From assembly GCA_902791335.1 (NCBI GenBank), contig CADAVL010000003.1, positions 1-40,363 of the forward strand: a stretch of DNA of 40,363 nucleotides, read 5' to 3'. Below are positions 2,933 to 29,286 of the stretch, in pieces. Under the pieces are notes generated by a model, which saw nothing but the letters and a program-made list of their open reading frames with translations, made no database searches and was not told where the DNA came from. The first letter of the stretch is position 1. Every line of letters begins with the position of its first letter. This stretch comes from Oscillospiraceae bacterium (lineage in GTDB: Bacteria > Bacillota > Clostridia > Oscillospirales > Acutalibacteraceae). The translations under genes and the position numbers were made by a program.

Positions 2933-3194
2933 CCGTCCGCAAAAAAACTCAAAAAAGCCAAACCGACAAAGTTTTTTCGCGGCGCGCCCTGTCGCCCCAC
3001 AAGTGGGGCGACAGCAAAGCCCCCGAATTTGCAAAAGGCTTAAAAGCAGCGGTTTTTCACAATAAAATAAAAAGGACAGCCGCGGCGGTTTTTTAAGGGG
3101 GCTTTGCCCAATTTTGAAACCGCAGGTTTTAAAATCGGGCGCGCCGCAAAGCGCATGAAAGTTCTGGCTTTTTTGAGGTTTTTTCGGCGGACAG
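2933..3194. repeat. Palindromic cloverleaf element, copy A
   Basis: About 260 bp. The ends are long imperfect inverted repeats: 2935-2960 (GTCCGC...GCCA) pairs with 3165-3192 (TGGC...GCGGAC). Further in, GCGGCGCGCCC at 2979-2989 pairs perfectly with 3137-3147. Inside are three arms: CTGTCGCCCCAC/GTGGGGCGACAG at 2989-3014; AAAGCCCCC 3016-3024 with GGGGGCTTT 3097-3105, enclosing an A/T-rich loop; and a wobble-rich arm at 3107-3139. It shares the outer-stem core and the GTCGCC arm with the copies at 11327, 21895 and 29121, but here the core stem is written in the opposite sense. Function unknown. Confidence 0.75.
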
Positions 3195-3302
3195 TTGTCT
3201 CTTACTCCCCGAATATCCGGCGAGCTAGCCACGGCAAACCGTTTATAATACAGTTCATACAAAAAACCAAGAAATAACGAAAACAAATTTTCAAAAATAT
3301 AC

Positions 3303-3364
3303 AAAAATATAAGGCGCTATGTTAAAAATATCCAAAAATATAAGGCGCTATGTTAAAAATATCC
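3303..3364 (+). repeat. Perfect tandem 31-bp duplication before a promoter
   Basis: Two identical 31-bp units, 3303-3333 and 3334-3364, each starting AAAAATATAAGGCGCTATG and ending AAAAATATCC. The second ends one base before the -35 box of the glycosidase promoter. Position and identity suggest a duplicated regulator-binding site, but no regulator is known. Confidence 0.85.
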
Positions 3365-3430: not shown

Positions 3431-6037
3431 ATGAAAGCAACAAATTTTAATCGCGACTGGCAAGGCGGCGACGCCGTTCCACATTTGGGATACAATATTC
3501 TTGAAGGACTTCGACCGAAGCTTTGCGACCTTGACGGCAACCCCATGGTGGTACATAACCGCAAAAATCACCCCGACGAAAACGCGATTTTGCAGATGAC
3601 CGCGCCGTATGAAACGGAAGAACACATTGATATTCGCGGTGAAAACTGCAAAATGACCTTTGACCTCGGCCGTTCGATCGGGATCGACCGCGTTTTTGTG
3701 TCGGGCTATTGGCACCCCACCCTTGACTGTATGCTGGCGGACTACGAGCTGTTTTTCTCAGATGATGAAAACAATCTGTTTTCTCCCGAAAATCGGCTTT
3801 GCCACGTAGATAATAACGGTCTTTGGCAAAAAGGCACACCGCGGCAGTCGGAACTGTTTATTGACGCCGAGGGCGTTACCGCGCGGTATTTCGGCATGCG
3901 CGTGAACAAGTCCTGCGCTTTTGACGATATTATCCGCATTGGTTGTCTGGCGCTTTATAGCAACTGTCTTGACCGGGAAATGCTGTTTATCCCGAAGCAT
4001 TTCGACCACAATATTTTAAAAGCGGACGACATTAAGATTTTGGGCCTTTCCGACGATTTTGCAAAACTTACAGACAGCGTTTGCTTTAGAAAAGACGAGG
4101 GCGTTCCCCTGCCGCAGGGCAAGCTGGTGCTGCACCCTCAAAAGAGCGTGAAAGCGCTCAATTTTATTGGACTTTTCGGTGATTACACCGTTTCTACCGC
4201 CGACTGCGAGGGAGATCTGTTTTTGAAAGCTGCCGACGGTACGAACGAAAGCCTTTCAACCGACGGTGCCGAGGAACGCGCGGACACCTTCATTTTTTCC
4301 GACGCTTCAAAAAAATATATCGGTGTTGCTTTTGACGGTGCCGACGCGCTGATTGAGCAAATCACCGCCCTTACGGAAGAACGCGAGGCGTTTGTGGATA
4401 CCGAAAAGATCCGCACAGAGGATTTCATCGGTATCGGCGCAAACGATCTTCCCATGGCGCGTATGCCGGAATCCCGTCAAAAGGGCTTCCGCGACGTTTA
4501 CTGGCCGGTGTACCGTCACCGTTTGATAAAATCTCAGCCGGCGGCTTTGCGCGTGTGGTTCCAGCTGGACTGGGTGGTGGACAACGAGGCCGATTATAAC
4601 TGCGGCAAGTGCAATTTTGAAAGCGATAAAATGCACGCCTTTTACCCCTATTTGGACGCTTACGAGGCCGCAGGAATTGAGGTTGAATTCAACTTCGGCT
4701 GGAAAGCCGGCACCACCATTCAGGAGTGGTTCAGCGTTCCGGAAACCAGCGTGCCCAAAGAGCACGGCGGCGGAGACGGCAGAGCCGCCTCTGCACCGCG
4801 CAATTTTGAAGGCTTTGCAAAGTGCTGTGCCGCCACGGTAAAGGAGCTTTGCGAAAGCCGCGGCTACACCTGCATTAAGCATTTGACTTTTTATAACGAG
4901 TCCAATTACGGCGACAGTTCGAGAGTTCACGGCGACTTTTTGGGTTATTACGGACATTCCAAAGAAATGTGGGAGAAAATGCTTCGCCTGGTGGACGCAG
5001 AGCTTCAGAAAAACGGCGCGAAAAAATATGTGGATTACTGGCTGGCCGAGGAATCCGGTTTGGACGAAATCGAGCTTGAGTGGATGCACTACATGAAGAC
5101 CCACTGCAAGGAGTTTTTATCGGTCAACACCTTCCACCGCTATTTCCGCAAGCACGACGACCGTTTGGATTATTTCGGAAAGATTCGCCGCGAGTGTGAG
5201 GATAAGCCGGCTGTGGCTTCGGAATTTGCGGTTTATCTGGATACGCCGCTGTGGAACATGAACAATATTGAATACGTCATGTCATTGTTGCATTCGGGCT
5301 TAAACGGTGGTCTTTACTGGATTCTACAGGGCGTTATGCTGACCGATCCTACCTGGCTTTATCTGCGCGGCAGCGATATTTCAAACTGGTGGCTGCCGGC
5401 TTACGAAAAAAATGGTATGACCACGGAAACGATACCTTACCATGAATTCAGCCTGTTTACCCACTATATGCCGCGTCATTCAAAGGTGCTTTGTGCCGAT
5501 ACTTCGGAAAAGGACCTGAGAATTGAGGCCATTGAAACCCCGGACGGCCATTATACTGTATTTTTGGAGTGTAACGATACCGCTTTCGACAAGGAAGTTA
5601 CCGTAAAATTCCCCAAAAATATCGGCAAGACCTTTTATAAGCACGTTTACCGCCGCGGTGTAAAGCGTGACGGCAACCTTGCTGTACCGGCGAGCGAAAA
5701 AGCGATTGCAGTGGCTGATACTTTAAAAGACAATGTCGGCAAGGACTACAGTTTGGTGGCTTATACCACCATGCCGGAGTTCTTACAGGTCAACATGGAA
5801 AAAACGCTGTATCAGGTAAAACCCGGCAGCAAGACACAGCTTTCAGCCGATATCGTGGGCACAGATGGCGCGCTTTTGTGGAAGATCGAAACCGAATCCG
5901 GCCCCCATTGCGAAATCTCGTCCGACGGTGTTTTTACGGCCTCCGAAAAATCTCAGGCCGGTGACCTTTATTGCGTCAGCGCCACGTTAAAGGACAATTC
6001 CGCAGCCTTCGGTGTTGCAATGATCGAAATAATATAG
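3431..6037 (+). CDS. Unassigned clan GH-A-like glycoside hydrolase
   Basis: An 868-residue protein without signal peptide, so probably cytoplasmic. Residues 1-180 look like a beta-sandwich. About 345-700 read as a TIM-barrel glycosidase: LTFYNESN puts a likely acid/base Glu at 490 and ASEFAVY a likely nucleophile Glu at 598, the Asn-Glu plus downstream-Glu pattern of retaining clan GH-A enzymes (GH39/GH79/GH30-like). Residues about 785-868 resemble a bacterial Ig-like (Big2) domain, ending in a SSDGVFTA-type motif. I cannot name the family or substrate. ATG 3431 follows GAAGGTG. It appears to be a single-gene unit, since a new promoter overlaps its stop codon. Confidence 0.7.
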   Translation: MKATNFNRDWQGGDAVPHLGYNILEGLRPKLCDLDGNPMVVHNRKNHPDENAILQMTAPYETEEHIDIRGENCKMTFDLGRSIGIDRVFVSGYWHPTLDCMLADYELFFSDDENNLFSPENRLCHVDNNGLWQKGTPRQSELFIDAEGVTARYFGMRVNKSCAFDDIIRIGCLALYSNCLDREMLFIPKHFDHNILKADDIKILGLSDDFAKLTDSVCFRKDEGVPLPQGKLVLHPQKSVKALNFIGLFGDYTVSTADCEGDLFLKAADGTNESLSTDGAEERADTFIFSDASKKYIGVAFDGADALIEQITALTEEREAFVDTEKIRTEDFIGIGANDLPMARMPESRQKGFRDVYWPVYRHRLIKSQPAALRVWFQLDWVVDNEADYNCGKCNFESDKMHAFYPYLDAYEAAGIEVEFNFGWKAGTTIQEWFSVPETSVPKEHGGGDGRAASAPRNFEGFAKCCAATVKELCESRGYTCIKHLTFYNESNYGDSSRVHGDFLGYYGHSKEMWEKMLRLVDAELQKNGAKKYVDYWLAEESGLDEIELEWMHYMKTHCKEFLSVNTFHRYFRKHDDRLDYFGKIRRECEDKPAVASEFAVYLDTPLWNMNNIEYVMSLLHSGLNGGLYWILQGVMLTDPTWLYLRGSDISNWWLPAYEKNGMTTETIPYHEFSLFTHYMPRHSKVLCADTSEKDLRIEAIETPDGHYTVFLECNDTAFDKEVTVKFPKNIGKTFYKHVYRRGVKRDGNLAVPASEKAIAVADTLKDNVGKDYSLVAYTTMPEFLQVNMEKTLYQVKPGSKTQLSADIVGTDGALLWKIETESGPHCEISSDGVFTASEKSQAGDLYCVSATLKDNSAAFGVAMIEII

Positions 6038-6043
6038 TATACT
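6015..6043 (+). promoter_or_regulatory. Promoter of the stomatin-family gene
   Basis: TTGCAA (6015-6020), 17-bp spacer, TATACT (6038-6043). The -10 box lies at the stop codon of the preceding gene. Confidence 0.75.
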
Positions 6044-11326: not shown

Positions 11327-11517
11327 GTCCGTCGGTTTCATCGCTGCCGGAAAAGACGCGCGCCGCCGGGCGACGGAGTGCAAAAGCACTCCGACGCCCG
11401 AAGAACCCCCGAGCAATTCACGGCCGCACAAAACGCGGCCGTGAATTGCTCGGGGGTTTGTCGCCTTTTGAGGCGACGCGGCGCGCAGATCTTTCGGCGG
11501 CGATGGAACCGGCGGAC
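11327..11517. repeat. Palindromic cloverleaf element, copy C
   Basis: The cleanest copy, 191 bp. The outer arms 11327-11366 and 11478-11517 are imperfect inverted repeats of about 40 bases (ends GTCCG/CGGAC) with a perfect GCGCGCCGC/GCGGCGCGC core. Between them lie three hairpins almost without spacer bases: 11367-11400 (CGGGCG-A-CGGAGTGC, AAAA loop), 11404-11458 (24-bp perfect stem, 7-base loop) and 11460-11477 (GTCGCCT-TTTG-AGGCGAC). The fold is a four-way junction. No terminator-like T-run follows. Confidence 0.85.
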
Positions 11518-13050: not shown

Positions 13051-13153
13051 CTTTTTAAAAAGGCTTTTATTTGGTGCAAAGCTTTTCGGCGCAAAGTCTT
13101 AATAGAAAGGCAACTTTTAAACGGTTTCTTTTTGGGGAGAAAAGGGAAAACCC

Positions 13154-13323
13154 GGCAGGGGGCAGCTTTTGTGCTTTTTCGCGCGCCGCGTGACAAAAAG
13201 CGGAACGCTTTTTTTGTCACGGCCGCCAATGAAGGCCAAGCGCGACGGCGCTTGGTCTTCATTGGCGGCCGCAAAGCCCTTCGGGCTTTCGCGGCGCGCG
13301 ACCCGACCTTTTTGCTCCCTGCC
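13154..13323. repeat. Palindromic cloverleaf element, copy B
   Basis: 170 bp. Ends GGCAGGGGGCA (13154-13164) and TGCTCCCTGCC (13313-13323) pair with one mismatch; the core stem CGCGCGCCGCG (13180-13190) pairs perfectly with 13290-13300. Three hairpins lie between: 13191-13219 (TGACAAAAAGCG, GAA loop), 13221-13270 (14-bp GGCCGCCAATGAAG stem extended past one bulge, 50 bases in all) and 13272-13290 (AAAGCCC-TTC-GGGCTTT). The GTCGCC arm is replaced by a GTGAC one. The GCGGAACGC hairpin tip is shared with copy E. Confidence 0.8.
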
Positions 13324-13469
13324 GAAGCTTCATTTTTTTGAAAGCCAAAACAAAACCACTAAAAGAAAGCCTTTTTGAAAAAAGCATTTTTGCGGCTTTC
13401 AAAGAAATTAAAAAACATCAAAAGAGCAAAAACAAAGAATCGCAAAGCGGAAGCTTTCAAAAAAGATGT

Positions 13470-21894: not shown

Positions 21895-22051
21895 GGCCGC
21901 GCGCCGCCGCGGTTTTTTCGGGCCGAAAGGCCAAAAAACCGCGGGCAAGCTTTATTCGGGAAAAGGCTTTGCGCCCAAGAAGGGCGGCGCAAAGCCTTTT
22001 CCCAAATGAAGCTTTTCGCTGTCGCCCCGAAGGGCGACGCGGCGCGCGGCC
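21895..22051. repeat. Palindromic cloverleaf element, copy D
   Basis: 157 bp. Outer stem GGCCGCGCGCCGC (21895-21907) pairs perfectly with 22039-22051. Three arms fill the space: 21908-21943 (CGCGGTTTTTT stem, then GGCC-GAAA-GGCC), 21947-22014 (18-bp perfect stem GGGAAAAGGCTTTGCGCC at 21958-21975 with 21986-22003, extended by AAGCTT ends) and 22021-22038 (GTCGCCC-CGAA-GGGCGAC). The junction GGGCGACGCGGCGCGCGGC is repeated in inverted sense in copy E. Unlike the others it lacks long outer flanking arms. Confidence 0.85.
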
Positions 22052-27767: not shown

Positions 27768-27803
27768 CAGCAGGTATCCTTTAGAAAAAGGCAGGGCAGA
27801 AAG

Positions 27804-27871
27804 CCGAAATCGAAAAAACACCAAAATCGACAGAATACCGAAATCGAAAAAACACCAAAATCGGCAGAATA
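27804..27871 (+). repeat. Tandem 34-bp duplication
   Basis: Units 27804-27837 and 27838-27871 begin CCGAAATCGAAAAAACACC and differ at one base (CGACAG versus CGGCAG). They lie between the unknown membrane gene and its terminator. No function visible. Confidence 0.85.
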
Positions 27872-29120: not shown

Positions 29121-29286
29121 TTGCCGTCCGGGTGTTTTTCGCTCGTCCTGCCGCGCGCCGCGTCGCCCGCAAGGGCGACCGCCCGCGCCGAGCGGAACGC
29201 TCGGCGCGGGCGCACAAACTAAAAAGCAGCGCTTTTTAGTTTGCGGCGGCGCGCGGCAGGACGAGCGAAAAAACACCGGCCGGCAA
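29121..29286. repeat. Palindromic cloverleaf element, copy E
   Basis: Outer arms 29132-29161 and 29246-29276 match over 30 bases with only one inserted A (GTGTTTTTCGC... to GCGGCGCGC...), extended outward by TTGCCGTCCGG/CCGGCCGGCAA. Three arms lie between: 29162-29179 (GTCGCCC-GCAA-GGGCGAC), 29180-29212 (15-bp stem CGCCCGCGCCGAGCG with a GAA loop) and 29215-29243 (CAAACTAAAAAGC-AGC-complement). It is in the opposite sense to copies C and D: the GTCGCC arm comes first. All stems are perfect, suggesting a recent copy or strong constraint. Confidence 0.88.

Follow-up and report, generated by a model that had tools for sequence, protein, structure and literature searches.

A lineage-restricted family of intergenic cloverleaf repeats in an Oscillospiraceae genome, with signs of renewal by template switching

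A four-helix cloverleaf at 11327-11517

The 191 bases at 11327-11517 (plus strand) of the analysed DNA, a stretch of 40,363 nt hereafter called the window, fold into a four-helix cloverleaf consisting of an outer stem, P1, and three hairpins, H1, H2 and H3. This repeat is referred to below as copy C, and its parts are as follows:

11327-11366, plus strand: 5' arm of the outer stem P1 (DNA and RNA folding; covariance model R1, described below, matches 11327-11517)
11358-11366, plus strand: junction-proximal P1 core, 5' side, GCGCGCCGC
11367-11400, plus strand: hairpin H1 (folding)
about 11403-11459, plus strand: hairpin H2 with a 24-bp perfect stem (folding, repeat search)
11460-11477, plus strand: hairpin H3, GTCGCC..GGCGAC, the most widely shared hairpin (folding)
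11478-11517, plus strand: 3' arm of P1, with the core GCGGCGCGC at 11478-11486 (folding, model R1)

A four-way junction had been proposed here in the initial annotation; its arms and three hairpins were reproduced to within a base or two, and the perfect 24-bp middle stem is indeed present. The cloverleaf was the minimum-energy fold in every case (DNA, plus-strand RNA and minus-strand RNA), at energies far below those of shuffled sequences. For DNA the minimum was -104.6 kcal/mol against -45.6 +/- 3.2 for dinucleotide shuffles (z -18.6), for plus-strand RNA -164.4 kcal/mol against -79.7 +/- 4.4 (z -19.4) and for minus-strand RNA -154.2 kcal/mol; zero shuffles matched the folding energy of copy C. 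About two bases are left unpaired at its junction, and the non-Watson-Crick pairs in its stems, read on the plus strand, are four G-T and no A-C.

Altogether the window holds five cloverleafs, named A to E, with fold z values between -8 and -17 across the five. The other four are:

2947-3180, minus strand: copy E, divergent, found by structural scan (z -8.2; R1 match marginal, E 0.47), with a long H2 (96 nt), core GGCGCGCCC/GGGCGCGCC and junction at 2989-3137
13150-13327, plus strand: copy D, 3' of a DinB-type polymerase gene (R1 E 2.8e-5; z -12.4), with P1 core 13181-13189/13291-13299, H1 13191-13219, H2 13220-13271 (24-bp), H3 13273-13289 and a decayed outer P1
21894-22052, plus strand: copy B, with only about 14 bp of P1 paired (z -8.7); H1 21908-21943, H2 21944-22020, H3 22021-22038
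29122-29285, minus strand: copy A, between divergent genes, P1 of 40 bp (R1 E 3e-14; z -13.7); H1 29245-29213, H2 29212-29180, H3 29179-29162, zero unpaired bases at the junction

Two tandem repeats were also seen in the window. A 31-bp duplication (AAAAATATACAAAAATATAAGGCGCTATGTT, two copies 97% alike) at 3293-3354 lies directly upstream of an 868-aa open reading frame, and a short array of about four degenerate copies of a 17-base unit (AAAACACCAAAATCGA-like) occupies 27797-27864.

Copy number in the genome

Direct repeats tied the last hairpin of copy C to two further sites in the window. Of six genomic occurrences of the pattern GTCGCC..GGCGACGCGGCGCG, three fall inside the window, and the same four-helix plan surrounds nearly all of the six. 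The 9-mer P1 core GCGCGCCGC has many more sites, arranged as facing pairs about 80-160 nt apart, and loci with such facing cores yielded 26 folded copies, including a sequence-similar subfamily of a dozen. Covariance model R1 was built from these twelve subfamily copies, all of them outside the window. It gave 116 matches in the genome, both strands of one copy being counted separately; 79 matches are full-length, measure 136-242 bp and contain 49-70% GC. Run unfiltered on the window, R1 recovered copy A, exactly 11327-11517 as copy C (E 7e-13), and copy D, despite these copies having almost no hairpin sequence in common with the others. A scan for structure only, made on the stretches around copies, found 88 strong cloverleafs; four of them were later set aside as doubtful or overlapping, and the statistics below refer to the remaining 84 copies.

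We put the copy number at about 90. This is a lower bound, since the completeness of the draft is 81% and its contigs seem to end at such elements. Copies were observed at contig ends C2:41148, C20:20619, C26:1-70, C145:1 and C1:23. The assembly probably breaks at the repeats and so undercounts them.

Architecture of the element

Over the 84 copies P1 measures about 40 bp, and the median sizes of the hairpins are 32 nt for H1, 40 nt for H2 and 15 nt for H3. H3 lies at one end, is usually the shortest and is GC-rich, and the orientation of each element was assigned from this position and shortness. The conserved sequence is located at the junction: the P1 core GCGCGCCGC is exact in 45 of the 84 copies, and GCC..GGC is present in H3 of 80. 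Other subfamilies have different P1 cores (CTCGCGCGC, CCGCGCGCC, GCGCGGCGC) and retain the pairing, and in most of the divergent copies the H1 and H2 stems pair almost perfectly although their sequences are unrelated. One reduced element, at 2075-2120 of stretch L034 (C14:9074-9119), lacks H1 and H2, so that P1 closes directly on H3.

The tight abutment of helices in copy C had been likened to a Holliday junction. Flush contacts are indeed a family trait (P1/H1 in 65 and H3/P1 in 67 of the 84 copies), but one or two unpaired bases lie at the H1/H2 boundary in most copies and only 7/84 have no unpaired junction base anywhere. A perfect Holliday-like junction is thus not the conserved feature of the family.

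Ends, insertion sites and genomic context

The 79 full-length matches have sharp ends, AACC..GGTT, with information falling from about 0.5 to about 0.2 bit at both ends of P1. This approximately 40-bp P1 corresponds to the terminal inverted repeat expected of a bacterial MITE. Among the same matches, direct repeats of 3-9 bp were not in excess at end shifts from -4 to +6, which gives no sign of target duplication, and neither TA termini nor A+T richness was observed. Neither an empty site nor a gene interrupted by an element was found, so that mobility, which we consider probable, is argued from copy number and sharp ends.

The elements are intergenic: 28 lie between convergent, 30 between codirectional and 7 between divergent genes; for the remainder, the end of the contig or of the analysed stretch was too close for classification. 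Genes were taken from a simple call of open reading frames, in which frames overlapping elements were treated as spurious. Elements lie at a median of about 150 nt from gene 3' ends. Orientation relative to codirectional genes (17:13) has no link to gene strand, and orientation relative to the GC-skew strand (40:39) gives no replication or strand bias.

The genome has one gene for an IS200-type Y1 transposase, with no cloverleaf detected next to it. In this 81% complete genome, all exact matches of the subfamily end motif fall within known copies or directly at them, and no unassigned gene has one next to it. A 2-kb unit at C14:7158-9114, suspected of being an autonomous element, turned out to be a gene beside a copy without H1 and H2; judging by eye from its sequence, we take this gene to be glutamate dehydrogenase-like.

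Another dispersed repeat, about 280 nt long (starting CGTCAGCCTAGGCAA..AATAATCCGAA) and with copies 77-98% alike, adjoins roughly ten cloverleafs and has a long branched fold of its own. Its sites include C24 ~5020-5320, C48 ~5756-6042 and C14 ~2340-2640, as well as sites on C60, C110, C13, C82, C153 and C154. Separately, the elements at C75:6054-6212 and C75:9450-9605 have 94% of a 124-nt right flank in common, which suggests duplication or recombination between copies.

Distribution outside the genome

R1 had no matches in 60 related genomes, among which there was no other genome of the genus. A scan of 394 genomes from the same order, shallow in that 7 candidates were scored per genome, also gave none, and neither did a structural scan for four-way cloverleafs in 277 kb from ten genera; the reversed-window control for the latter was invalid because reversal preserves palindromes. 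Exact-pattern matches, counted by pattern alone, occurred singly in 20 genomes of mostly GC-rich taxa and were taken as chance rather than spread. No blastn match was obtained in the phage or plasmid collection, and two pattern matches in viral contigs do not fold as cloverleafs. No Rfam family reached its gathering score, the best permissive matches being to miRNA-type long hairpins. The best reading of these searches is that the family is lineage-restricted.

Coupled arm changes and mismatches

In the alignment of twelve copies, 25 of 67 pairs are changed on both sides, compared with 8.6 after shuffling, and 96.2% of cells are paired, compared with 43-51% when partners are slid by one column. 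The outer P1 of the subfamily has 179 coupled changes, 65 of them transversions, against about 30 expected if the arms changed independently (about six times); these were counted on the sequence alignment, not on a tree, and some of them reflect shared ancestry. In divergent members, the similarity between the two arms of one copy far exceeds their similarity to any other copy, median P1 arm identity over 79 copies being 0.88 within a copy and 0.60 between copies. Arms of copy A are 0.93 identical to each other and 0.66 identical to those of the nearest relative, and the values for copy C are 0.83 and 0.62; in copy D the outer arms stand at 0.58 within the copy and 0.59 between copies. Such coupling could come from selection for pairing or from a mutational process that rewrites arms.

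Mismatches amount to about 4.5% of the tested stem pairs across the 84 copies. G-T and A-C mismatches number 72:49 with one strand folded and 58:52 with the other, at most a weak bias, and 43 mismatches are of the transversion type. The 4:0 ratio of copy C is thus not typical of the family. Similar G-T and A-C rates are as expected for decay of DNA palindromes, and in this respect the suggestion of an ageing palindrome holds; but the palindromes are also renewed, judging by the excess of coupled changes. On average, folding is slightly more favourable for the element strand than for its complement (56 of the 84 copies, p 3e-4).

Inversion of loops and interiors

Template switching is known to leave a footprint of arm homogenisation together with spacer inversion (PMC8604942, PMC8794818). 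Both were found in the cloverleaf family, the latter in modest numbers. H2 loops exist in both orientations (GAA/TTC, AAC/GTT, AAA/TTT), and hairpin tips occur both as GCCAAAGGC and GCCTTTGGC and as GCCAACGGC and GCCGTTGGC. With homopolymers excluded, there were 13 reverse-complement loop couples against 7 reversed and 7 complemented controls, small counts obtained with short, A/T-rich loops. At a larger scale, the two-element units C11:14762-15133 and C14:2655-3035 are paralogous, sharing the spacer (83%) and the first element, while the interior of the second element is inverted between the paralogues.

Origin and maintenance of the fold

We favour, at a probability of about 0.55, a lineage-restricted MITE-like repeat whose fold is maintained mainly by replication template switching. 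The family comprises short (about 136-242 bp) non-coding repeats, each with three internal palindromes inside an outer inverted repeat of roughly 40 bp, so that either strand folds into the cloverleaf. Its copies would have spread to intergenic sites along a route that is probably non-autonomous and produces no target duplication that could be detected. During replication a strand may fold back so that one arm templates the other; this would remove mismatches, convert a single mutation into a matching change in both arms and at times invert a loop or the whole interior. Under such renewal, sequence turns over while structure persists. Template switching would thus account for the coupled arms, and homogenised arms combined with inverted spacers are best read as its signature rather than as that of a selected RNA. 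The cloverleaf RNA itself probably has no strong host function. Several observations speak against template switching or against strictly neutral renewal. The folding preference of the element strand is not predicted by template switching, the arms of copy D match no better within than between copies, junction-proximal P1 and H3 are conserved beyond the needs of folding, and intergenic placement is not neutral. The strand preference, the junction core and the scarcity near promoters may mean that something beyond neutral renewal acts, which may be the elimination of harmful insertions, an enzyme that recognises the element or a slight effect of the RNA.

Alternatively, the cloverleaf DNA may itself be the working form: a structure-specific recombinase or transposase would act on a folded single strand or an extruded cruciform, with pairing selected for recognition of the four-way junction. 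Clustering of the conserved parts at the junction, lack of target duplication (as in single-strand transposition of the IS200/IS605 kind) and the C11/C14 interior inversion suit this idea, which we nevertheless consider unlikely, given that the lone Y1 transposase gene has no cloverleaf beside it, the end motif leads to no unassigned gene, orientation is unbiased relative to the GC-skew strand and junction linkers vary. Somewhat less probable is a mobile element of a new class that is recognised through its shape, in which the folded cloverleaf with its nearly gap-free four-way junction would be the intermediate that is cut and inserted; only the junction core would then be conserved, the arms would be free to change if paired, and each movement would reset them to perfection.

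A structured non-coding RNA family selected for its fold would explain the strong covariation in the twelve-copy alignment, the exclusively G-T mismatches on the plus strand of copy C and the slightly lower mean folding energy of the element strand. A selected RNA fold should spare G-U over A-C, so the near-even family ratio counts against it, as do the absence of an Rfam family at gathering score, unrelated H1 and H2 sequences between most of the divergent copies, the 17:13 orientation and the failure to find the family in the searched relatives; we regard this reading as quite improbable. An ordinary MITE of a DDE transposase, its internal palindromes incidental and young, is more doubtful still. 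Such an element would be short, non-coding, intergenic, abundant and bounded by terminal inverted repeats, as these are, but there is no 3-9 bp target duplication at any tested end shift, the ends lack TA, the elements are GC-rich, and copying from a master would not give H1 and H2 that differ completely between divergent copies and yet remain paired. Finally, bidirectional terminators or RNase III processing sites would fit the frequent placement between convergent and after codirectional genes and its rarity between divergent ones. This seems very improbable, as gene 3' ends lie at a median of about 150 nt, a single hairpin would suffice and copy A sits between divergent genes.

Relation to known repeats and significance

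Like NEMIS/Correia, RUP, ERIC/IRU, RPE, YPAL and CIR (PMC2229807), the cloverleaf repeats are short, non-coding, intergenic and present in many copies, with terminal inverted repeats and strongly foldable transcripts. They agree with bacterial MITEs in size, copy number and terminal repeats and depart from them in target duplication, TA ends and A+T richness, which those miniature elements usually have (PMC2229807). The latter mostly form one long stem-loop or two arms rather than four helices, and, unlike them, divergent cloverleaf copies no longer share hairpin sequence. The stem-loop families surveyed in 40 bacterial genomes are likewise foldable intergenic repeats; the parts of that survey consulted describe single or double hairpins, some 'complex', and mention no cloverleaf or four-way family (PMC2267715). 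Homogenised arms and inverted loops are shared with inverted repeats shaped by template switching (PMC8604942, PMC8794818), which are reported for single hairpins in genes, miRNAs and rRNA, whereas here the helices belong to a dispersed multi-hairpin family. LIMP, the organelle palindromic repeats of Lobosphaera, are likewise dispersed intergenic palindromes linked to rearrangement but are single-hairpin pentanucleotide repeats with an invariant loop (PMC4524435). We found no bacterial cloverleaf family with turned-over arms in the open-licence literature.

With about 90 copies of four helices apiece, the family would offer an extensive record, within one genome, of palindrome renewal by template switching. 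Such a record would allow 'compensatory' changes that arise by mutation to be told apart from those due to selection, an issue for covariation-based claims of RNA structure generally. If the fold is what a recombinase reads, the family would instead be a shape-recognised mobile element.
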